Source of the DNA: Flavobacteriales bacterium 34_180_T64
GTDB lineage: Bacteria > Bacteroidota > Bacteroidia > Flavobacteriales > Flavobacteriaceae
Direction of reading: 5' to 3'
Assembly (NCBI GenBank): GCA_002162765.1
Contig: MAAR01000004.1
Location: 310,001 to 374,000 of the forward strand
Length of the DNA stretch: 64,000 nt
Shown here: in pieces, positions 39,105 through 48,141 of the stretch
Layout of the letters: every line of letters starts with the position of its first letter
Position numbering within the stretch: position 1 is the first letter of the stretch
Notes under the pieces: model-generated
Told to the model about the DNA's origin: nothing
Database searches by the model: none
What the model saw: the letters and a program-made list of their open reading frames with translations, nothing else
Program-made: the position numbers and the translations under genes

Positions 39105-39953
39105 ATGAATAAAATTTGGTTTATCTTTTTTTTAATCCTTTACAACTGTAACCCGAATACAGAAAATTTCAAAGTCATTGCAGATTTATCAAAATCATTA
39201 AAGGAAGTTTCGGGAATGGAAAAAACATCTAAATCAGAAATGATATGGATGGTAAATGATGCCGGAAACTCACCTAAATTATTTGGTGTTAATTCGAAAG
39301 GAAAAATCAAGAAAGTGCTCAATATAAATGCAAAAAATAACGACTGGGAAGATTTAACCTCTGACCCTCAAGGCAATTTATACATTGGGGATTTTGGCAA
39401 TAATTTAAGTAATCGAACTAATTTAGCAGTATTAAAAGTTAAGCAGTCAGATTTAAAATCGGATAGTTTAGTTAATATTGAGCGCATTTCATTTAGATAC
39501 CCTAGTCAGATTAAAATACCTTCCAAGAAAAAGAATCGCTATTTTGACTGTGAAGCCTTTTTCTTTTTTAATGATAGTTTGTTCCTATTTACAAAAAGCA
39601 GAGTAAAAACTGATTTTGGAACAACCAGTTTATATAAAATACCTGCGAAACAAGGACAGCATATTGCCGAATATGTTGATAGTTTCACATCCTGTCCCAA
39701 AATGAAATGCTGGATCACCTCAGCAGATATAAGCGACGATGGCAAAACTGCAGCACTACTGAGCCCGAAATCAGTTTGGCTATTTACCAACTTTAGTTCT
39801 GGTAATTTTTTAAATGGAAACACTAAAGAAATCCCTTTAAGACATAATTCTCAATTAGAAAGCATCTTTTTTAAAGATAAAGAAACGCTTTATTTAAGTG
39901 ATGAAAAAGCACATGGCGAAGGCGGAAACCTCTATGCTCTTAAACTCGACTGA
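39105..39953 (+). CDS. lipoprotein with beta-propeller-like repeats, unknown function
   Basis: 282 residues. Lipobox FFLILYNCN. The rest contains blade-like repeats: EVSGMEKTSKSEMIWMVND, DWEDLTSDPQGNLYIGDFGN, KMKCWITSADISDDGKTAAL, SIFFKDKETLYLSDE. This pattern resembles SdiA-regulated or TolB-like propeller proteins found in Bacteroidota. It probably faces the periplasm. It converges with and overlaps the PsiE-like gene by 22 bases. No partner is visible. Confidence 0.7.
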   Translation: MNKIWFIFFLILYNCNPNTENFKVIADLSKSLKEVSGMEKTSKSEMIWMVNDAGNSPKLFGVNSKGKIKKVLNINAKNNDWEDLTSDPQGNLYIGDFGNNLSNRTNLAVLKVKQSDLKSDSLVNIERISFRYPSQIKIPSKKKNRYFDCEAFFFFNDSLFLFTKSRVKTDFGTTSLYKIPAKQGQHIAEYVDSFTSCPKMKCWITSADISDDGKTAALLSPKSVWLFTNFSSGNFLNGNTKEIPLRHNSQLESIFFKDKETLYLSDEKAHGEGGNLYALKLD

Positions 39954-40387
39954 CGCTTAATTCCCATTCCTTTTTTAATTAAATAATAGCCTAGAGACAA
40001 CACAATAATTAAAGAGCTTATTCCTATTATCGTTAATGGATTTAACGCTTTAAAATCTAAATCAATGACATGTCTAGAGATACCAATTAGCGCCACAAGC
40101 AAAACAATTTCTACATGAACAACATCTTCCTTCAAATACATTTTAACAGTATGGACCAACTCAACACCAATTAAGACCATCATAAAACCACCAAATATTT
40201 TGTGTAAATGAGTCAGTATATTATTCTCAGTAAAGGAATTTTGATATTGCGATGTGATGCCTTTAAATAGTAATCCTAGAAAAACGATACTAGAATATAA
40301 AACGACGAAAAGTAATGAGAATAATAAAATAGAAATGATGACTTTTTCAATGCATTCGACGATTCCAATTAAGAAATTTTTATTCAT
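39932..40387 (-). CDS. PsiE-family membrane protein
   Basis: 151 residues from the ATG at 40387, which starts 1 base after the preceding stop; an upstream ATG at 40414 would overlap that gene. Four helices are visible (VIISILLFSLLFVVLYSSIV, MVLIGVELVHTVKMYL, VEIVLLVALIGISRHVIDL, IIGISSLIIVLSLGYYLI). The central ELVHTV and RHVIDLD motifs match the PsiE family (phosphate-starvation-inducible in E. coli). It is the second gene of a unit that starts at the LytTR-type promoter at 40847. Confidence 0.8.
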   Translation of the reverse strand: MNKNFLIGIVECIEKVIISILLFSLLFVVLYSSIVFLGLLFKGITSQYQNSFTENNILTHLHKIFGGFMMVLIGVELVHTVKMYLKEDVVHVEIVLLVALIGISRHVIDLDFKALNPLTIIGISSLIIVLSLGYYLIKKGMGIKRQSSLRA

Positions 40388-40388
40388 A

Positions 40389-40823
40389 CTAGATCGTTTC
40401 AATTTGAACTTCATTTATTTTAAGCATCACAATTTCACAAAGCACATCCATCATTCCTAAATGAACTGTATATTGTTCATCACTAAGTCTAGGCTGAACA
40501 CTTGAGTTAATCATGTCAAAATTCAATTGTACTTTTTCGATAATTTCGTCCTGTGTAAAATCCTGATCCATATCGTCCAATCTCATCATTTTGTTCATGT
40601 ATAAAACAATAATCCCGTGATAAAGGTTGTCTTCATCATCACTAAGTTGCATGCTTTCAGTTTTATGATAAAACCAAATTTGAAGTTCATTTCTTTCGTC
40701 AGAAGAGAACATTTCTACTCTATTTTTTTGACGTTCAATTTTTAAATCATTTGAACTTTGAGAATTTACATTGAAAGAAGTGAATACTAAAATAATTACG
40801 AGTACTGATTTTAATGTTTTCAT
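40389..40823 (-). CDS. small exported protein of unknown function
   Basis: 144 residues: signal peptide (MKTLKSVLVIILVFTSFNVN) and a helical, acidic, Met-rich mature part (DEDNLYHGIIVLYMNKMMRL, LGMMDVLCEIVMLKINEVQ). No family recognised. It is the first gene behind the promoter with 21-base repeats at 40847-40919 and precedes the PsiE-like gene by 1 base. Its promoter architecture is shared with three others in 42938-47430, so it is probably a target of the adjacent LytTR response regulator. Confidence 0.7.
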   Translation of the reverse strand: MKTLKSVLVIILVFTSFNVNSQSSNDLKIERQKNRVEMFSSDERNELQIWFYHKTESMQLSDDEDNLYHGIIVLYMNKMMRLDDMDQDFTQDEIIEKVQLNFDMINSSVQPRLSDEQYTVHLGMMDVLCEIVMLKINEVQIETI

Positions 40824-40846: not shown

Positions 40847-40919
40847 CAAAAATACACTGATACAAAGCCTTTTCAGAAGCAAATAAAGTGAACCGACCTA
40901 TTATTAAAGTGAAATGTCC
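40847..40919 (-). promoter_or_regulatory. LytTR-type regulated promoter I
   Basis: The minus-strand -7 box TATTTTTG occupies 40854-40847. Tandem repeats, given on the plus strand, are GTGAACCGACC (40888-40898) and GTGAAATGTCC (40909-40919), 21 bases apart, with a weaker CTGAAATAAAT at 40930. The nearest repeat starts 34 bases from the box edge. Start of transcription near 40840, 17 bases before the ATG at 40823. Confidence 0.7.
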
Positions 40920-40955
40920 TAAATTGAAACTGAAATAAATATTACAATTCTAAAA

Positions 40956-41717
40956 CTATGAATTCATCCAGTTTTTAATTTCAGAAGCTTTGGCTTTACT
41001 TGCTACTATACGTTCTGAGAAAGGTGGGTTGACGTTTATAATAAGCTTGCCATTAAAATAGAATTTGATATTTGTTATTGCATTTCTGTTGATAACGAAT
41101 TGTCTATTGACGCGATGAAATGTATTTGGGTCTATTTCGCTTTCAATATCTTCTAACTTTTTATCAATAACATATGACTTGTTTAACAACGTAGTTGCTT
41201 TTACGATTCCTGTTTCAATATAAAAATAGGCAATATCATCAGTTTTAATAGGTAATAATTCGTCTCTCTGATGAATTAAATAAGTAGTTTTATATGATTT
41301 GCTTTTTGTCTGTAGTAATTGCATCATTCCTTCTAGTTGAGAATTCATTTGCAATTTTTCTTTCGGTGTGCTTTTAAACTTATCAATAGCATCACTCAAC
41401 TCGTCTTCATTTATTGGTTTTAACAAGTAGTCGATACTATTCACTTTGAATGCTTTTATGGCATATTGATCATAAGCAGTCGTGAAAATAACAGGTATAT
41501 TCATGGACACCTGATCAAAGATCTCAAACGAAATACCATCAGCTAAATGAATATCCATAAACACAAGTTCCGCTTCATTTGGTTTTGAAAAGTAATCCAC
41601 AGAAGATTTAACAGAATCTAATACCTTTAAAATCTCAATATTTGAATCAATAGTGTGGATTAAGTATTTAAGATTTTCACTTGCAGCAATTTCGTCTTCA
41701 ATAATAGCAACTTTCAT
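40956..41717 (-). CDS. LytTR-family response regulator
   Basis: 253 residues. Receiver domain (1-120) with acidic pocket EDE at 7-9, phosphoacceptor Asp55 in LVFMDIHLADG, Thr in VIFTTAYDQ and Lys in YLLKPI. The C-terminal LytTR DNA-binding domain (~145-253) has DDIAYFYIETGIVKA, FHRVNRQFVINRNAI and NPPFSERIVASK. LytTR proteins bind pairs of direct repeats about 21 bases apart, which is what four nearby promoters show. It follows the histidine kinase gene by 5 bases. Confidence 0.93.
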   Translation of the reverse strand: MKVAIIEDEIAASENLKYLIHTIDSNIEILKVLDSVKSSVDYFSKPNEAELVFMDIHLADGISFEIFDQVSMNIPVIFTTAYDQYAIKAFKVNSIDYLLKPINEDELSDAIDKFKSTPKEKLQMNSQLEGMMQLLQTKSKSYKTTYLIHQRDELLPIKTDDIAYFYIETGIVKATTLLNKSYVIDKKLEDIESEIDPNTFHRVNRQFVINRNAITNIKFYFNGKLIINVNPPFSERIVASKAKASEIKNWMNS

Positions 41718-41722
41718 AGTCT

Positions 41723-42793
41723 CTAATTTAATGGGAGTTTTACCTTAAATATATTCTCAGCATTGCTAATAATGATGTTTTGATTTTTAAGCATCATATA
41801 ACGTTTATCCAAATTCACCAATCCATTCCCCGTACTATCCACAAATGTTGTTCTTAGTCGAATGACATTTTCTACAACAATGGCATTTTTTTCATAGTAA
41901 ACCTTAACTAGTAATGGATTACTTTCAGAAATCTCGTTATGCTTCACCGCATTTTCAACTAGTAATTGAAGTGCTAAAGCGGGAATTTTTTCAGTCATAA
42001 ACTCGCTATCAATTGAAATTTCAATTTTAAAACGATCTCTGTATCTCGTATTAATCAAGTAAATGTAACTCTCTAAGAATTTTAGCTCTTCTTCAATTGT
42101 CACCAAATCTTGACTTCTGCTTTGTAAAATATATCGATACATGAATGAGAGCTTATTCACAAAAGTTGTCGCTGGCTTATTATCGCGTATGAGTGAGTTT
42201 AATGAATTCAATGAATTGAACAAAAAGTGAGGATTGATTTGATTTTTTAAAGCCTCTAACTCATTCAATAAACTTTGCTGTTTTAAAAGTTCCTTTTCTA
42301 CGATATCCTCTTGATGAATGATTTGAAATCTAAGAATTCTAGACACGAAAACAAGAATAAACAAAACAACGAAATATACAAAATACAACAAGCCAATTTC
42401 ATTATTCAACATCACTATTCCTGTAATGCAGTCATAGATGGAAACAAAAAGATTCACAGCAGAAAAAAATAAAGTCGCATTCAAAAAAAGGGTAAGACTA
42501 ATTCTTAAAAATTTAGATCTATTGGAAAACGCATACTTCCAATTCGTATTATATTGAAGAACCAACCAAGAGAAGATGAATAAAAAAATAAATCTAATTA
42601 GTATATCCTTAACCGATGCTGTAGTAAATGAATCGGAAAGTCTGTCTACAATATCAAATAATGATAATACACGTGGTAAGGTGATTAAACCCGATACGAG
42701 TAATGCAATTCCAATAATTAGTGAGTGCCTTACTTTTTTAAAACCCAAAGTAAATAAGTTTTTTGATGATTTATGTGTTGCTAATTTAGCCAA
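41723..42793 (-). CDS. LytS-type sensor histidine kinase (YehU family)
   Basis: 356 residues: four helices in ~20-155, a short coiled coil (KELLKQQSLLNELEALKNQ), then the His_kinase domain with QINPHFLFNSLNSLNSLIRD and an ATPase region (ALQLLVENAVKHNEIS, GNGLVNLDKRY). It should phosphorylate the LytTR regulator encoded 5 bases downstream. The frame begins at a TTG (42793-42791); I see no ATG in a sensible place, so TTG is likely the start. A minus-strand terminator at 42863-42828 lies in its leader. Confidence 0.9.
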   Translation of the reverse strand: MAKLATHKSSKNLFTLGFKKVRHSLIIGIALLVSGLITLPRVLSLFDIVDRLSDSFTTASVKDILIRFIFLFIFSWLVLQYNTNWKYAFSNRSKFLRISLTLFLNATLFFSAVNLFVSIYDCITGIVMLNNEIGLLYFVYFVVLFILVFVSRILRFQIIHQEDIVEKELLKQQSLLNELEALKNQINPHFLFNSLNSLNSLIRDNKPATTFVNKLSFMYRYILQSRSQDLVTIEEELKFLESYIYLINTRYRDRFKIEISIDSEFMTEKIPALALQLLVENAVKHNEISESNPLLVKVYYEKNAIVVENVIRLRTTFVDSTGNGLVNLDKRYMMLKNQNIIISNAENIFKVKLPLN

Positions 42794-42827
42794 AGTTAGT
42801 CTTTTTAATATGAATTAAATCTTACTT

Positions 42828-42863
42828 AAAAAAAGAGACTGCCAAACCAAAAAAGACAGTCTC
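42828..42863 (-). terminator. minus-strand intrinsic terminator in the kinase leader
   Basis: On the minus strand GAGACTGTC pairs with GGCAGTCTC across an 11-base loop (9 pairs, one G.U), followed by seven T. On the plus strand one pair is lost and no T run follows, so it acts on minus-strand transcripts. Confidence 0.8.
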
Positions 42864-42931
42864 AAAACTTTAATTGCTATTAATCCTTGGTTTAGTATCT
42901 TTAATCTTGGTATAGCTATTATCACTTATTT
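42828..42931 (-). ncRNA. predicted ~100-nt leader RNA or sRNA before the kinase gene
   Basis: A transcript from promoter II (start about 42931) would run to the terminator at 42828, about 104 nt. It contains no ATG. It has two copies of an ACCAAG(G)ATTAA motif before the terminator stem. It may be a free small RNA or an attenuated leader of the kinase-regulator operon, whose TTG start lies 35 bases beyond. Expression is not proven. Confidence 0.5.
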
Positions 42932-42937
42932 CTTATA

Positions 42938-43032
42938 CAAATGTAACCTGAAGCATTGCACTTTGCGAACAGTTTAATGGTGAATTGACCTTAATTAGAG
43001 GTGAATTGACTTTCAACCGTTGTGAAATTTTA
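42938..43032 (-). promoter_or_regulatory. LytTR-type regulated promoter II
   Basis: Minus-strand -7 box TACATTTG at 42945-42938. Repeats on the plus strand are GTGAATTGACC (42980), GTGAATTGACT (43001) and a weaker GTGAAATTTTA (43022), all 21 bases apart. The nearest starts 35 bases from the box edge, as in promoters III and IV. It faces the predicted RNA and the kinase gene, suggesting autoregulation. Confidence 0.7.
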
Positions 43033-43068
43033 TATCTTTACTTTATAAATACTTTTAGTTATAAAATC

Positions 43069-43704
43069 ATGTTAAAAACACGTTTTATTACCTCTTTTAT
43101 AGTTTGCATTGGATTTCTCCTTTTTTCTAGTTGTGGACCAAAACTCACTCAGTCAGGATTTCTAAGTTCTTATAATAATCTCGAAGAAAGTGAAGCAAAT
43201 GCAACTATGCTGTCTTATATCAATCCAAACATTGAAAAAGGTAAATACAAAAAATTAATGGTGGATGAGATCACAACTAAATTCGGTAAAAAAGCCAAAG
43301 GTCTTAAAATAAATCAAGAGAAGTTAGATGAATTAACAGCATATTTTAAAGCCGAAATAATAAATGCTTTAAGTACAGATTACACCTTAGTTGATCAAGT
43401 TGGAGATGATGTAGCTCAAATTCAAATTGCCATTACAGAAATCATTCCTACTAGGTTGACTTCGAATATATTCCCTATAGGCGTAGCAGTAAACACTGCA
43501 ACGGGAAGAGGAAAAGGAGGTGCTTCTTTAGAAATGAAAGTTGTTGATTCTCAGACTAAAGCTTTATTAGGGCAAGCCATAGATAATCGAAAAAACAGAA
43601 GCTATATTAGATCATTTAGTAAATTTGGAAATGCTCGTGGTGCATTGACTTATTGGTCAAAACTACTTAAAGAACGAATTGACTTATTTAAAGCTGCTCA
43701 ATAA
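43069..43704 (+). CDS. lipoprotein of the DUF3313-like kind
   Basis: 211 residues from the ATG at 43069, which gives a proper lipoprotein signal (MLKTRFITSFIVCIGFLLFS then SCGPK); the frame is open further up to 42985 but that part lies in the regulatory region. The mature part has GFLSSYNNLEES, a predicted mixed alpha/beta domain and a Gly-rich TATGRGKGGASLEMKVVD, which resembles DUF3313 lipoproteins. It is 1 base before the nucleotide cyclase gene and so likely functions with it. Its promoter may be TATCTTTA at 43033. Confidence 0.7.
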   Translation: MLKTRFITSFIVCIGFLLFSSCGPKLTQSGFLSSYNNLEESEANATMLSYINPNIEKGKYKKLMVDEITTKFGKKAKGLKINQEKLDELTAYFKAEIINALSTDYTLVDQVGDDVAQIQIAITEIIPTRLTSNIFPIGVAVNTATGRGKGGASLEMKVVDSQTKALLGQAIDNRKNRSYIRSFSKFGNARGALTYWSKLLKERIDLFKAAQ

Positions 43705-43705
43705 A

Positions 43706-44803
43706 ATGATTAATCCAAACTGGATACGTTATGTCATAACTTTTACTTCAGGTTGGATCATTTCATTAGTATTATGGAGACTTTTACGAATAGATGAGAT
43801 TAAAGCGTATCTCGTATTTTTACATGTAAATTTTTCTAGCCTAAATTTCATCCTTTTTATTTCTTTAGTATCCCTAATTGCAGGATTAACATTCGGAAGT
43901 GTTCAGTATTATGATGACTTTGTGATTCGGCGTAAGTCCTCATTTATAACAACTTTATTTAAAAGTTTTATAAGTCATCTTATTATTATGTCTTTTCTTT
44001 ATGGACTGATTTTCTTAGCAATAAAATTATCGAAAATAAATTCAAATCTAGAGTTTAGTCATTTTATACGAAGCCCTTTAATTATTATCAACTTTATATA
44101 CTCTCTAATCATTAATGCAATTATTGTGATTATTATTCATCTCAATAAATTATTAGGACGAGGAAACTTATTAAAGTTGCTGACAGGTAAATTTTACAGA
44201 CCTAAAGAAGAGTACCGCGTTTTTATGTTTATTGATTTGCAATCGTCAACCGAAATTGCAGAACGATTAGGACATATTAGTTACAGCAAATTAATTCAAG
44301 ATTGCTTTTATGATTTGTCTGTTTTTGAGAAATCAAAAGCTGAAATCTATCAATACGTTGGAGACGAAGCGGTTTTGACATGGAAATTCCATAAAAACAC
44401 ATCGTTAAATACACTTATCGGAGCTTTCTTTCAGTATAAAAAAGAATTCGAATTGAAATCTAAATACTATATGTCGGAATATGGTGTGGTTCCTATTTTC
44501 AAGGCTGGAATGCATTTGGGTGAAGTCACAGTAGTAGAAGTAGGCAGTCTAAAACGTGAGATTGCCTATCATGGTGATACTCTAAATATTACTTCAAGGA
44601 TACAGGCACAATGTAAAGTATTTGAAAAAGAGTTTTTAATATCACAAACATTATTCGATGTTATAGACGACAAAAGTAGATTTGAATATGAAACCCTAAA
44701 AGAAGTTCTTTTAAGAGGAAAAAAAGAATCTACAATGTTAATATCTGTTTCAAAAAAAACTGCCGATAACATAACGCGTACGTTTCGGCAGTCAATCAAC
44801 TAA
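43706..44803 (+). CDS. class III nucleotide cyclase with membrane anchor
   Basis: 365 residues from the ATG at 43706, 1 base after the lipoprotein stop. The first ~165 residues hold four helices. The cyclase domain (~180-350) has VFMFIDLQSSTEIAERLG with a metal Asp, IYQYVGDEAVLTW with the second metal Asp, and GDTLNITSRIQAQC with the transition-state Asn and Arg. It is therefore likely active. The substrate (ATP or GTP) cannot be fixed. It converges on the lipoprotein gene at 44819. Confidence 0.87.
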   Translation: MINPNWIRYVITFTSGWIISLVLWRLLRIDEIKAYLVFLHVNFSSLNFILFISLVSLIAGLTFGSVQYYDDFVIRRKSSFITTLFKSFISHLIIMSFLYGLIFLAIKLSKINSNLEFSHFIRSPLIIINFIYSLIINAIIVIIIHLNKLLGRGNLLKLLTGKFYRPKEEYRVFMFIDLQSSTEIAERLGHISYSKLIQDCFYDLSVFEKSKAEIYQYVGDEAVLTWKFHKNTSLNTLIGAFFQYKKEFELKSKYYMSEYGVVPIFKAGMHLGEVTVVEVGSLKREIAYHGDTLNITSRIQAQCKVFEKEFLISQTLFDVIDDKSRFEYETLKEVLLRGKKESTMLISVSKKTADNITRTFRQSIN

Positions 44804-44818
44804 CACAATCAATCAAAC

Positions 44819-45466
44819 TTATTTTATTAACTCTTTTATTACCTTTTTTGAAAAATCCTTAGACGTTGTTCCTAAAGTCTCAGGGTTTTCTATTTTAGTC
44901 GTAATTACTGAAAGTAACTGTTCATTTTCAGGCTCATTTAAATCATAAACAATAGTCTCTAAGATGAATCTCTTGCCTTTTGAAGTTGTATAACTCGATG
45001 GACTTGAATCCATATAAATGGTATGATATGATCTATAAAAGCCTCTTCTGTAGTAGACAGGATAACTACTGAAATAATAATTTGAACCGCCCGTAGTTGT
45101 TGTTGTCTCGAATTCTTGTGTGTCTTTTAATACAGTCATTATAACTACATCTATACCCTTTTCAATATATTTTCTTTTTAACTCATCAATTTCTGATTTG
45201 GTTAAACTATCATTCACATCAACCTTGGGAATGAGCTTAAAACTTTCTACAGAGTTGATATTATTTTCTTCAAGCTTATCGACTAAATCAATTTCAAATT
45301 GTTTTCTAGTCAGGTCATCCTTTGATTTACTAAGCACTAGAACCTTTTTATCTACTAAATTGACAACTTCATTGTCTTTCCAAGAATCAGTTACTTTTAC
45401 TGAAGAACATGAGACGATTAATAAGACGATTATATTTACACCTAATATTTTAATTACTTTTTTCAT
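44819..45466 (-). CDS. lipoprotein of unknown function, putative LytTR target
   Basis: 215 residues: lipobox LLIVSCSSVKV, then TDSWKDNEVVNLVDKKVLVL, a Lys/Asp-rich alpha/beta region, a Thr/Gly/Tyr-rich stretch (TTTTTGGSNYYFSSYPVYY) and a C-terminal half with FILETIVYDLN. It recalls DUF4136-like lipoproteins but I cannot assign it. It lies 47 bases after the 50-codon gene at 45514-45666 on the same strand, so both should be read from promoter III. Confidence 0.7.
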   Translation of the reverse strand: MKKVIKILGVNIIVLLIVSCSSVKVTDSWKDNEVVNLVDKKVLVLSKSKDDLTRKQFEIDLVDKLEENNINSVESFKLIPKVDVNDSLTKSEIDELKRKYIEKGIDVVIMTVLKDTQEFETTTTTGGSNYYFSSYPVYYRRGFYRSYHTIYMDSSPSSYTTSKGKRFILETIVYDLNEPENEQLLSVITTKIENPETLGTTSKDFSKKVIKELIK

Positions 45467-45513
45467 GATTTCTATTTTTTAATTTGTGATTTATTAAAGT
45501 TAATATTTGGCCT

Positions 45514-45666
45514 TTACATGACTTTAGAAGCATATACTTCAAATGGATACATAATTACCATTATATATTTTTCGTCTGGACTCAAATCTGTGATATTGTC
45601 CCAATCGACAATGAATTGGTTTTCTAATATTGATTTTACAGTTCTAATACTATTTTGCCCTTTCAT
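45514..45666 (-). CDS. 50-residue protein behind LytTR-type promoter III
   Basis: An intact frame from ATG 45666-45664 to TAA 45516-45514: MKGQNSIRTVKSILENQFIV, then an acidic middle (DWDNITDLSPDEKY) and a hydrophobic end (IMVIMYPFEVYASKVM). The perfect -7 box TACTTTTG at 45696-45689 puts the transcription start about 16 bases before its ATG, which argues that it is real. The plus-strand frame over the same DNA is weaker. No family recognised; it may be a small regulatory or membrane-associated protein. Confidence 0.6.
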   Translation of the reverse strand: MKGQNSIRTVKSILENQFIVDWDNITDLSPDEKYIMVIMYPFEVYASKVM

Positions 45667-45688
45667 TTTATTTGATCTTTATCTAATA

Positions 45689-45783
45689 CAAAAGTACACT
45701 GGTAACTGACCATACTTTAGTGAAATCCCAGTCAAGCAACCAAATCTAAAAGTGAATCATCCTTTTTAATAGGTGAAGTCTTT
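45689..45783 (-). promoter_or_regulatory. LytTR-type regulated promoter III
   Basis: Minus-strand -7 box TACTTTTG at 45696-45689. Repeats on the plus strand are GTCAAGCAACC (45731), GTGAATCATCC (45752) and GTGAAGTCTTT (45773), each 21 bases apart. The nearest starts 35 bases from the box edge. An extra GTGAAATCCC at 45720 is out of register. Confidence 0.7.
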
Positions 45784-45823
45784 ACGAGTCATTAATATTA
45801 AAAATGGCTATAGCTAAAAAGCA

Positions 45824-45853
45824 TAAAAAAACCCATTACATTACTGTAAAGGG
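45824..45853 (-). terminator. intrinsic terminator of the 47306-45878 unit
   Basis: On the minus strand CCCTTTACA and TGTAATGGG pair across GTAA with one T.T mismatch, followed by seven T, 25 bases after the stop at 45878. Confidence 0.75.
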
Positions 45854-45877
45854 ATTGTATTCCGAGAAAAGTGTTTA

Positions 45878-46627
45878 CTACCCACGTCTTCGCTTTCCTA
45901 TTACTTCTTTTTCATTGCTTTCGTCTCTATCATCTTGACGCTCTCGTCTATCTTCTCGACGCTCTCTATTATCTTCAGCCAACTCTATTTTAGTCATGGC
46001 AATATCTTCTTTCAAAAAAATTACAAAACTTTTAAATTGAGTTTCTATCATCTTCTTTTTGCCAGCGTATTCTGCACTTTCTTTAGCTTCGACCGAATAA
46101 CCAAACACTTTTAGAGATGCCATAATTTCTGATTGTTTTTCTGCAATTTCAATTTGACGCTTAAAGTCAACAATGTCATCTCTTCGATCGCGCATATCAT
46201 CTCTGGTATTTGCCTTATCTCTAGCCAAATCGATTTCATCATCTCTTTGGTCATATCTCCCTCTCTTAGAGTCTTCTTTATCCTCTTTAACTTCTCTCCT
46301 GTCAGATCTAACTTCAGCAGAACTTTGTGCTATTTCTATCCTTGCTTTTTTGGCCTTTGCTCCACTTTGCCCTACTTCTCTAGTCATATCGCGAATCAAT
46401 TCTTTTGAAATTCTATCTACAGAATTTTGATCTTTTTGAGATACCGCTCTTTTCATTTCGTGTAGCTTAAGACTAAACTCATTTAGTTCATTAATGTCTC
46501 GTTCAAGCATTTTTTTACCTTCAATGATTTGCTTTGTATTTTGAATGGCTTCTTTTGTGTTTTGCCCAAACATTAAAGTATTTAAGACAATTGCGAAAAT
46601 TACAACTAAACTAATTTGATTTTTCAT
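45878..46627 (-). CDS. exported charged coiled-coil protein, putative LytTR target
   Basis: 249 residues. Signal peptide (MKNQISLVVIFAIVLNTLMF then GQ). The mature part is almost all charged helix: ELNEFSLKLHEMKRAVSQKD, a middle with many Asp-Arg pairs (RRDDIVDFKRQIEIAEKQ) and a tail of the form RERREDRRERQDDRDES. It is the second gene behind promoter IV, 31 bases after the DUF6515-like gene, and is followed by a terminator. Possibly a periplasmic stress or filament-like protein; function unknown. Confidence 0.72.
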   Translation of the reverse strand: MKNQISLVVIFAIVLNTLMFGQNTKEAIQNTKQIIEGKKMLERDINELNEFSLKLHEMKRAVSQKDQNSVDRISKELIRDMTREVGQSGAKAKKARIEIAQSSAEVRSDRREVKEDKEDSKRGRYDQRDDEIDLARDKANTRDDMRDRRDDIVDFKRQIEIAEKQSEIMASLKVFGYSVEAKESAEYAGKKKMIETQFKSFVIFLKEDIAMTKIELAEDNRERREDRRERQDDRDESNEKEVIGKRRRG

Positions 46628-46658
46628 ATGTATTTATGTGTTAACTCGATTAATCATT

Positions 46659-47306
46659 TCAACTACTATAGACAACTTTATATACGGTCTTACCATCAGT
46701 GTTTTCTGATTTCTTATAAAGCACATCATTTTGTTCGTAATAGCGTATTCCATCGATAACGACCTCACCTGCCTCCTCGGGAATCTTGTCTAATTCAGCG
46801 CCTATTGGAGGTGAAGTCACTTCATATCTATCCTCATTTTCAACAACTAAAGAATTCACAGAAGAATCTATATAATATACTCCTGAGTAATAAAAATAGA
46901 CCGAAGGTCCAATTACAATTCTAACATGCCCAGCTGGAAGTACCGCTATTCTAAAACCACGAGGAGGTACAACTACAATATATTCATTACCATAAGTTGT
47001 ATAGTAAATCCCCGAATGGTAGTAATAAGGCAACCCTCGAAACACAATAGTTGTATGGTGAACAGGAAGATACCTAAGTACATGGCGGTGTCTTGGATAG
47101 CGATAGTGAGGACTTCTTCGTACAGGTTGCGTTCTGTATCGATCATTTGCTCGATGCGTTGACTGCACTCGGTTATTATCTAAATTACGTTCATTTCTTG
47201 TGTTTCCGTTGGCACCATTATTTCTTTTCTGACTGAATATCTGATTCGAAAATAAAAACGTAATTACCAATACTCCTATTCCAAAAATGTGCCTTAAAGA
47301 TTTCAT
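46659..47306 (-). CDS. exported DUF6515-like protein, putative LytTR target
   Basis: 215 residues. Signal peptide (ending FLFSNQIFSQ), a basic Arg/Asn/His-rich stretch (~30-80), then two similar beta units: FRGLPYYYHSGIYYTTYG with VVVPPRGFRIAVLP, and YFYYSGVYYIDSS with YEVTSPPIGAELDKIP. A third YYxxNxVLYK unit ends the protein. This repeat of YYY/SG(V/I)YY strands fits the DUF6515 family of small envelope proteins. It is first behind promoter IV. Function unknown. Confidence 0.72.
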   Translation of the reverse strand: MKSLRHIFGIGVLVITFLFSNQIFSQKRNNGANGNTRNERNLDNNRVQSTHRANDRYRTQPVRRSPHYRYPRHRHVLRYLPVHHTTIVFRGLPYYYHSGIYYTTYGNEYIVVVPPRGFRIAVLPAGHVRIVIGPSVYFYYSGVYYIDSSVNSLVVENEDRYEVTSPPIGAELDKIPEEAGEVVIDGIRYYEQNDVLYKKSENTDGKTVYKVVYSS

Positions 47307-47356
47307 ACAACTCTCATTTATGCGTTTCTTAAAACTACTTTAGTCTTATTTTGACA

Positions 47357-47430
47357 CAAATGTAAAACACGTTAAATGTTGAACCCTCTAGTTAGGTAGC
47401 GAAGTGACCGAATTGCATTGTGAAGTGTTT
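47357..47430 (-). promoter_or_regulatory. LytTR-type regulated promoter IV
   Basis: Minus-strand -7 box TACATTTG at 47364-47357. Repeats on the plus strand are GCGAAGTGACC (47399) and GTGAAGTGTTT (47420), 21 bases apart. The nearest starts 35 bases from the box edge. Start near 47350, 44 bases before the ATG at 47306. Confidence 0.7.
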
Positions 47431-47469: not shown

Positions 47470-48141
47470 TTATTTTTTAGAATGTATAATGTATTTTCCA
47501 ACGACAATTGCCGTAACGATTACTAGATAAAATTGTCCCATCAAGCCGGTTAAAATAGCAGCCTTTTGAGCCACTGGCGTTGCAGGAACAATTTCTCCAT
47601 AGCCAATGGTCATCAATGTAATATAAGCGTAATACATAATGGAATCTAGACGTATCGTACCGTTAGGATTGTCATTTATGATTGCTGCAATGAATGATCC
47701 TGGTTCAATAAGTTCTATGGTACTAAACAAAAAGAAGGCAATAAATCCAAGAGAAATATAGCCGCTCATTAACCCTATAACAACCGTGTTATTTACCCGC
47801 TTCGCGTTCCAAATTTGTAATATTATTTGATAGGTTACAATAGCATGAAATAAAAAATGAATACCTAATTGAATCAGAAGATGATCACTAGAACTAGAAC
47901 CTTTTTGAAACATACCACTTCCAAAGGCAATCAAGGAAATTCCAAAAAGACCAATTGAAAACCACATCAATTTCTTATTCTTAGAAATCAACAATATACC
48001 TGTAAGGGTATTGACTAAAAACAGGATTGGGCTCAAAATATTATCAAAAAATTCATGAGGAAACAGGAGCGATCCAAACAGGATAATAAGCTGCGTTATA
48101 AAAAAAATATTAAACCTATATTCATATAACTTGTCAATCAT
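47470..48141 (-). CDS. two-pore-helix ion channel protein (potassium channel-like)
   Basis: 223 residues, about six helices. The pore signature is near residues 170-195: YYAYITLMTIGYGEIVPATP, where TIGYGE corresponds to the potassium filter TVGYGD. The last helix follows (GQFYLVIVTAIVVGKYI). No RCK or cyclic-nucleotide domain is present. It begins 1 base after the RND gene stop and is the last gene of the efflux operon, an unusual partner; membrane-potential control is one possibility. Confidence 0.82.
   Translation of the reverse strand: MIDKLYEYRFNIFFITQLIILFGSLLFPHEFFDNILSPILFLVNTLTGILLISKNKKLMWFSIGLFGISLIAFGSGMFQKGSSSSDHLLIQLGIHFLFHAIVTYQIILQIWNAKRVNNTVVIGLMSGYISLGFIAFFLFSTIELIEPGSFIAAIINDNPNGTIRLDSIMYYAYITLMTIGYGEIVPATPVAQKAAILTGLMGQFYLVIVTAIVVGKYIIHSKK

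Follow-up and report, generated by a model that had tools for sequence, protein, structure and literature searches.

Tandem 21-base repeats at four neighbouring promoters point to a local regulon of a LytS/LytTR-type two-component system in Flavobacteriaceae

The DNA analyzed here, referred to as the window, is a 64-kb stretch of contig C13 from the 3.16-Mb draft genome of Flavobacteriales bacterium 34_180_T64. Four of its minus-strand promoters (I to IV) share one architecture, in which two or three repeats stand at a fixed distance upstream of a TAnnTTTG box (the -7 box), and one of them, promoter II, precedes the genes of a membrane histidine kinase and of a LytTR response regulator. We are confident that these promoters make up a local regulon of this LytS/LytTR-type two-component system of Flavobacteriaceae, its own operon included; the repeats resemble characterized LytTR sites, their spacing is kept in relatives, and they co-occur with the regulator, thus supporting the reading that an earlier note on this DNA had proposed.

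Promoter architecture in the window

When distances were re-measured on the sequence, the TAnnTTTG box was found at all four promoters and the TTCAC-type cores followed each other with a period of exactly 21 bases, both as the earlier note had described. Core distances are given here from the first base of the box upstream to the start of the core; the nearest core lies at 39 bases in promoters II to IV and one base closer (38) in promoter I, and the 34, 35, 35 and 35 bases given earlier are the same spacings, measured up to the core's near edge. The word "identical", which had been applied to the repeats, is too strong, since the promoters share the register and not the sequence: the nearest unit is TTGAC in promoter III and TTCGC in promoter IV. 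A third unit is present in promoters II and III (TTCAC) and, in weak form (TTCAG), in promoter I, so that the units add up to 11 and not to the nine counted before.

A scan of the window that required the box, two units matching 8 or more of the 10 core letters, and a distance of 37-41 bases between the box and the nearer unit returned exactly promoters I-IV. Across the whole genome, TTCAC-N16-TTCAC-N34-TAnnTTTG with at most one mismatch was found at promoters II, III and IV and at C18:110151, promoter I being missed because of its spacing of 38. With up to three mismatches there were 58+59 matches vs 45+44 for a reversed control; as this is little above the control, the loose pattern is mostly noise, and it was dropped in favour of a sequence-only promoter model, for which the window and five relatives supplied 13 promoters. 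By this model promoters I-IV are the only sites of the genome at E<1e-3, the next non-overlapping match having an E value of 0.0265.

Distribution of promoters and regulator among genomes

The genome collection used groups the window's genome in one family with 59 relatives, seven of which carry an ortholog of the regulator at 62-78% identity, while the next tier of proteins reaches 44% or less. Another 31 loci (L084-L114), with regulators 55-72% identical, came from named records, where the closest regulators belong to Kordia, Aquimarina, Maribacter, Arenibacter, Winogradskyella, Tenacibaculum, other marine flavobacteria and some metagenome bins.

Applied to whole genomes at E<=1e-3, the promoter model was positive in all nine genomes with an ortholog (G000, G016, G017, G018, G025, G033, G035, G036 and G060) and in one of the 52 without, of which 45 were scanned with stricter filters that lose weak matches and seven were not. 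The earlier note had proposed such a scan of the genome and its relatives; the motif is not spread over random genes and tracks the regulator ortholog across relatives. The co-occurrence, together with the four sites being the sole ones in the genome, leads us to a local regulon tied to this regulator.

Spacing was also analyzed in the 31 further loci (581,964 bases, 750 TAnnTTTG boxes), counting TTCAC pairs of period 21 at 9 or more of 10 letters. The pairs are concentrated at distances of 38 (6), 39 (20), 59 (4) and 60 (20) from the box, each of the other 86 of 90 distances holding 0 or 1 pair; the peaks at both 39 and 60 indicate that three units are common. With the near unit fixed at 38/39 and the period varied, 26 pairs were found at 21 and 23 at 42, and 3 or fewer at any other period. 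None of these loci copies a training locus, the closest being L091 to L073 (85% over 9.9 kb) and L107 to L074 (80% over 8.3 kb). At E<=1e-3 the promoter model placed 27 sites in the 31 loci, 20 of which have at least one. A position weight matrix (PWM) returned 40 sites at a score of at least 20 in 28 of the 31 loci vs 0 in one block-shuffled copy, a result that is partly circular because its training set included these same loci besides the window and relatives. The start of an open reading frame (ORF) of at least 45 amino acids lies 15-85 nt downstream of 37/40 PWM sites vs 683/3234 background boxes.

Comparison with known LytTR systems

The operators of almost all LytTR response regulators consist of 9-11-nt repeats, 11-13 nt apart, with no common consensus (PMC4847170). 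The window's 11 units, of about 9-11 nt and at period 21 in four promoters, correspond to this definition, and the statement of the earlier note that LytTR regulators bind paired repeats about a double turn apart agrees with the characterized sites, including those of Escherichia coli YpdB. YpdB, which is linked to pyruvate sensing, binds the direct repeat GGCATTTCAT at sites A and B (PMC4847170), and we measured these repeats as 21 bp apart; thus the yhjX promoter of the YpdA/YpdB system also pairs a LytTR regulator with two direct repeats at exactly this period, and GGCATTTCAT has CATTTCA in common with GGACATTTCAC of promoter I. The two differ in that YpdB has two sites, whereas the window displays two or three repeats, a TAnnTTTG box and several envelope operons in addition to the system's own. 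The gene that YpdB controls encodes a transporter and has a sigma-70 promoter.

Three-repeat LytTR operators are known from RcoM and CoxC, where the direct repeats are 12-13 bp apart (PMC11347149); these are, however, single-component CO regulators, CoxC represses, and both the repeat (TTCNNGCA) and the organisms differ. In Staphylococcus aureus, AgrA binds two direct repeats upstream of P2 and P3, promoters with suboptimal spacers (PMC4227749). Paired direct repeats upstream of promoters are a trait that AgrC/AgrA and the window have in common. P2 belongs to the operon of AgrA itself and P3 drives the regulatory RNAIII, and the system differs from ours in sensing a peptide quorum signal. Our searches of the open-licence literature yielded no Bacteroidota LytTR regulator with a defined binding site or regulon, and no regulon with this set of targets, in agreement with the earlier note.

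Proposed mechanism and alternative explanations

According to our reading, the membrane kinase would phosphorylate the LytTR regulator, which would then bind GGwCRyTTCAC-like units, two or three per promoter and all on the same side of the helix (21 bp make two turns), the nearest of them some 39 bases above the -7 box. From there it may bring RNA polymerase to promoters whose -33 element is poor or absent. Its own operon would thereby be expressed more strongly, a presumed positive autoregulation, as would three neighbouring operons that encode small exported proteins and lipoproteins. Bacteroidota promoters are of the -33/-7 type. A TTG 21-27 bases above the box is absent from the 26 regulated sites vs 14/58 other box-plus-ORF sites (p 0.004), and this scarcity hints at an activator that replaces the -33 contact.

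Several observations weigh against parts of this reading. For the range of 19-25 bases the TTG counts are 2/26 vs 13/58 (p 0.13), so the difference is significant in one of the two ranges, and the evidence for activation is thin. Training promoters had been supplied by six of the nine positive genomes; G017, G036 and G060 had not contributed, and of these the G017 site covers positions 2-44 of 75 only (E 1.2e-4), while that of G036 (E 3.4e-10) is followed by a kinase gene. Taken alone, the untrained positives give 3/3 vs 1/52 (Fisher p 1.5e-4). A strong match (E 1.2e-6) also occurs in G031, the one positive genome lacking an ortholog; it lies roughly 7 kb from that genome's gene for a 39%-identical LytTR protein, and the genes beside the match are unlike the window's targets. 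Many of the 31 further loci belong to the same genera, with sequences up to 94% alike, and therefore locus counts are not independent events; 11 of the 31 have no promoter-model match at E<=1e-3, and no PWM score of 15 is reached in L086, a contig of 6 kb. In the PWM the two YpdB repeats reach scores of just 7.7 and 0.9. Finally, the genome contains 13 LytTR matches besides this regulator (14 in all), any of which might be the binder, and the target families vary between species.

The regulator might bind these sites and repress. Three-repeat LytTR repressors exist, CoxC being one (PMC11347149), and the missing -33 element, the chief sign of activation, reaches significance in only one of the two ranges. 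On the other hand, the CoxC operator overlaps the -35 element, whereas here the nearest unit starts 38-39 bases above the -7 box, and most LytTR regulators bind upstream of -35 and activate (PMC11347149); we regard repression as unlikely.

Scarcely better or worse placed is the possibility that the repeats are LytTR sites whose main binder is one or more paralogs, the local regulator being just one of the proteins that read a motif common to Bacteroidota LytTR regulators. The number of LytTR matches in the genome and the G031 site speak in its favour, as do the loci of about 40%-identical LytTR proteins across Bacteroidota. In 49 such loci there is a weaker peak of the same geometry (1, 5, 3 and 1 pairs at distances 37-40), and in 57 loci a motif-free search for self-similarity peaks at period 21 (40 vs 2-16 for other periods), although overlapping windows of few boxes were counted repeatedly in the latter; one locus, L128, which is among the 49 and contributes to the motif-free count, holds a partial true ortholog. 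Nevertheless, 51 of the 52 genomes without an ortholog have no site at E<=1e-3, though a further LytTR protein at E<=1e-40 is encoded in 38 of all 52, and every site of the window's genome at E<1e-3 adjoins this one regulator. The co-occurrence argues strongly for this LytTR protein, which is very probably the binder rather than another of the 14, and we consider a paralog in that role improbable.

Binding by a non-LytTR protein, or a chance or compositional periodicity, is very improbable: LytTR binding is itself deduced, and AT-rich DNA is prone to weak matches, as the loose pattern showed, but the sharp spacing recurs in the 31 further loci, the shuffled copy gave no PWM site against 40, and the sites co-occur with a LytTR gene. 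The repeat pattern is real and well beyond chance, and the earlier reading is correct in outline.

For the local regulon that we favour, a conserved site with a fixed promoter geometry makes regulons readable from sequence in a genome where LytTR regulators are this numerous, and it yields small, testable target sets of uncharacterized envelope proteins and candidate small RNAs.

RNA-like units in G016 and G060

On contig C7 of G016, five promoters of this type precede not a gene but a unit of about 145 nt with a stem and a T run at its end. Such units are clustered on few contigs of G016 and of its sister genome G060, of one genus, and three stem pairs change on both sides among the five G016 copies. 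Because these five were found through their promoters, the association is there by construction in G016. A model of the RNA body alone (R2) was built from them, which at E<=0.01 gave 8 matches in G016 and 13 in G060.

The promoter stands immediately upstream of all ten clustered same-strand matches on G060 contigs C4 and C8 (E<=8.8e-10), with PWM scores of 26.0 to 39.3, these loci having taken no part in the PWM. Nine of these ten contain the strict core, with 81-101 nt from box to core. The other G060 matches are C1:790599 (E 3.7e-7), which has no such promoter, C4:514907, and C8:57033, an opposite-strand read. In G016 the promoter before a weaker copy, C7:111053, is less good (score 25.1, spacing 37), and a match on C6 has none of this type. 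Rfam matches none of the five G016 units, the ones scanned, and the window's genome gave no unit (best E 0.069). An ATG that would read MVSLVS is found in all 14 strict copies (5 in G016 and 9 in G060), and a micro-ORF is therefore possible.

That the output includes multi-copy small regulatory RNAs in one genus, in parallel to AgrA-RNAIII and multi-copy sRNA (small RNA) switches, and that the geometry is general for Bacteroidota LytTR activators, we propose tentatively, at somewhat less than an even chance. A search of the open-licence literature for multicopy flavobacterial small RNAs yielded no description of such a regulon either. The RNA branch may be the most novel part of the finding.

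Multi-copy units of about 145 nt, RNA-like, lacking a long ORF and each with a terminator, stand behind LytTR-type promoters at L194:7539 and 16485 and L195:6482, 7819 and 8836 (all minus), and in L233 and L234. The Flavo-1 RNA (RF01705, 70.3 bits) at L194:4087-4193 (minus) is near the G016 units and is a separate element. The GGTTAGTTTGGTTAGTTT core was rejected as a stand-alone marker of the units, as comparable GTTGGTTAGTT stretches are also found in front of terminator-like stems in other genera. They lie directly before such stems at L072:11816 and in L202, L204, L205, L208, L209, L210, L212 and L215, possibly as a general pre-terminator motif of Flavobacteriaceae.

Genes of the two-component system and of the putative regulon

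The features of the window are collected in Table 1. In the regulator both the receiver and the LytTR domain score above the cut-off (Response_reg 43.5 bits, LytTR 69.3 bits), which completes the domain set of PF04397. It remains below the NCBIfam equivalog cut-offs (97.7 of 375 bits for the LytR model, 80.6 of 246 for BtsR), and on these scores is assignable neither to the S. aureus LytR nor to the E. coli BtsR equivalogs. The N-terminal half of the kinase is hydrophobic, as read from its translation, and its gene is 5 bases from that of the regulator, a pairing of the LytS/LytTR type. Of the seven ortholog loci L069-L075, all retain the pair except L075, whose contig begins within the regulator gene.

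Table 1. Promoter elements and genes of the putative regulon in the window
Feature	Position	Strand	Basis or detail
LytTR response regulator (receiver + LytTR domain), proposed regulator	40956..41717	minus	Pfam LytTR 3.3e-19, Response_reg 3.9e-11
Membrane sensor histidine kinase (PF06580)	41723..42793	minus	Pfam His_kinase 2.3e-25, 89.1 bits
Promoter I -7 box TATTTTTG	40854-40847	minus	Sequence reading, window scan
Promoter I repeats GGTCGGTTCAC, GGACATTTCAC, weak third ATTTATTTCAG	40888..40940	minus	Cores 38/59/80 from box
Promoter II -7 box TACATTTG	42945-42938	minus	Sequence reading, window scan
Promoter II, 3 repeats	42980..43032	minus	Cores 39/60/81 from box; upstream of kinase-regulator operon
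Promoter III -7 box TACTTTTG	45696-45689	minus	Sequence reading, window scan
Promoter III, 3 repeats, nearest degenerate (TTGAC)	45731..45783	minus	Cores 39/60/81 from box
Promoter IV -7 box TACATTTG	47364-47357	minus	Sequence reading, window scan
Promoter IV, 2 repeats (TTCGC nearest, then TTCAC)	47399..47430	minus	Cores 39/60 from box
Terminator-like element, promoter II leader	42828..42863	minus	Perfect inverted repeat of 7 bp (GAGACTG/CAGTCTC) with a 15-nt loop and a T run
Target of I: exported 144-aa helical protein	40389..40823	minus	Relatives in 14/39 loci, window counted
Target of I, second gene: PsiE family	39932..40402	minus	Pfam PsiE 1.1e-21
Target of III: 50-aa protein	45514..45666	minus	Sequence
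Target of III, second gene: 215-aa lipoprotein	44819..45466	minus	Relatives in 16/39 loci, window counted
Target of IV: DUF6515 exported protein	46659..47306	minus	Pfam DUF6515 5.5e-24
Target of IV, second gene: exported charged 249-aa protein, probably coiled	45878..46627	minus	

The gene content behind the promoters is as the earlier note listed it: a small exported protein with PsiE, the kinase-regulator pair, a 50-residue protein with a lipoprotein, and two envelope proteins. PsiE stands beside the window's regulator only, with no relative in the other 38 of the 39 loci searched. Both proteins behind promoter IV have relatives in 6/39 loci, window included (for DUF6515 this count includes a marginal match, E 9e-4), and recur as a pair in L069, L085, L098 and L102. 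The predicted fold of the 215-aa lipoprotein is like that of PelC (E 1.2e-6) and, more weakly, DUF4136 (1.3e-3), with template modelling (TM) scores of 0.37-0.47 by query length, and no Pfam match to either family was found among 21 members at E<=0.01; the modelled resemblance is thus one of fold, without sequence membership. An envelope role of the regulon is plausible, and because target families differ between species one common physiological purpose is not established. Kinship of the 144-aa exported protein with CpxP/Spy, suggested by what we took to be an LTxxQ-like stretch, found no support, the best PDB fold match having an E value of 1.2 and the Pfam matches being scattered and weak.

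Another exported protein family was found in 18 loci, nearly always between promoter and kinase, an interval that in the window holds instead a leader of about 110 nt with the terminator-like repeat. This element was read from the sequence, the terminator scan (loop limit 8) does not list it, and its stem is absent from the minimum-energy fold of the leader; as a structured RNA the leader is unsupported by folding (z -0.70). Divergent from promoter II is a DUF3313 gene (42985-43704, plus), which may be co-regulated, since the promoter II repeats and the region upstream of this gene overlap. Just upstream of promoter IV lies an Ion_trans_2 channel gene (47470-48141, minus) beside a gene for a 1037-aa transporter-like protein, which we take to be of the RND type; in L070 and L072 the two are again found together, next to related genes.

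An LFI ending (for example DENTILFI, NEESILFI, DESTFLFI) is common to small proteins, some 40-50 residues long, behind regulated promoters, as seen at L069:4506 (plus), L070:12352 (minus), L085:7340 (plus), L087:7591 (plus) and L090:4947 (plus).

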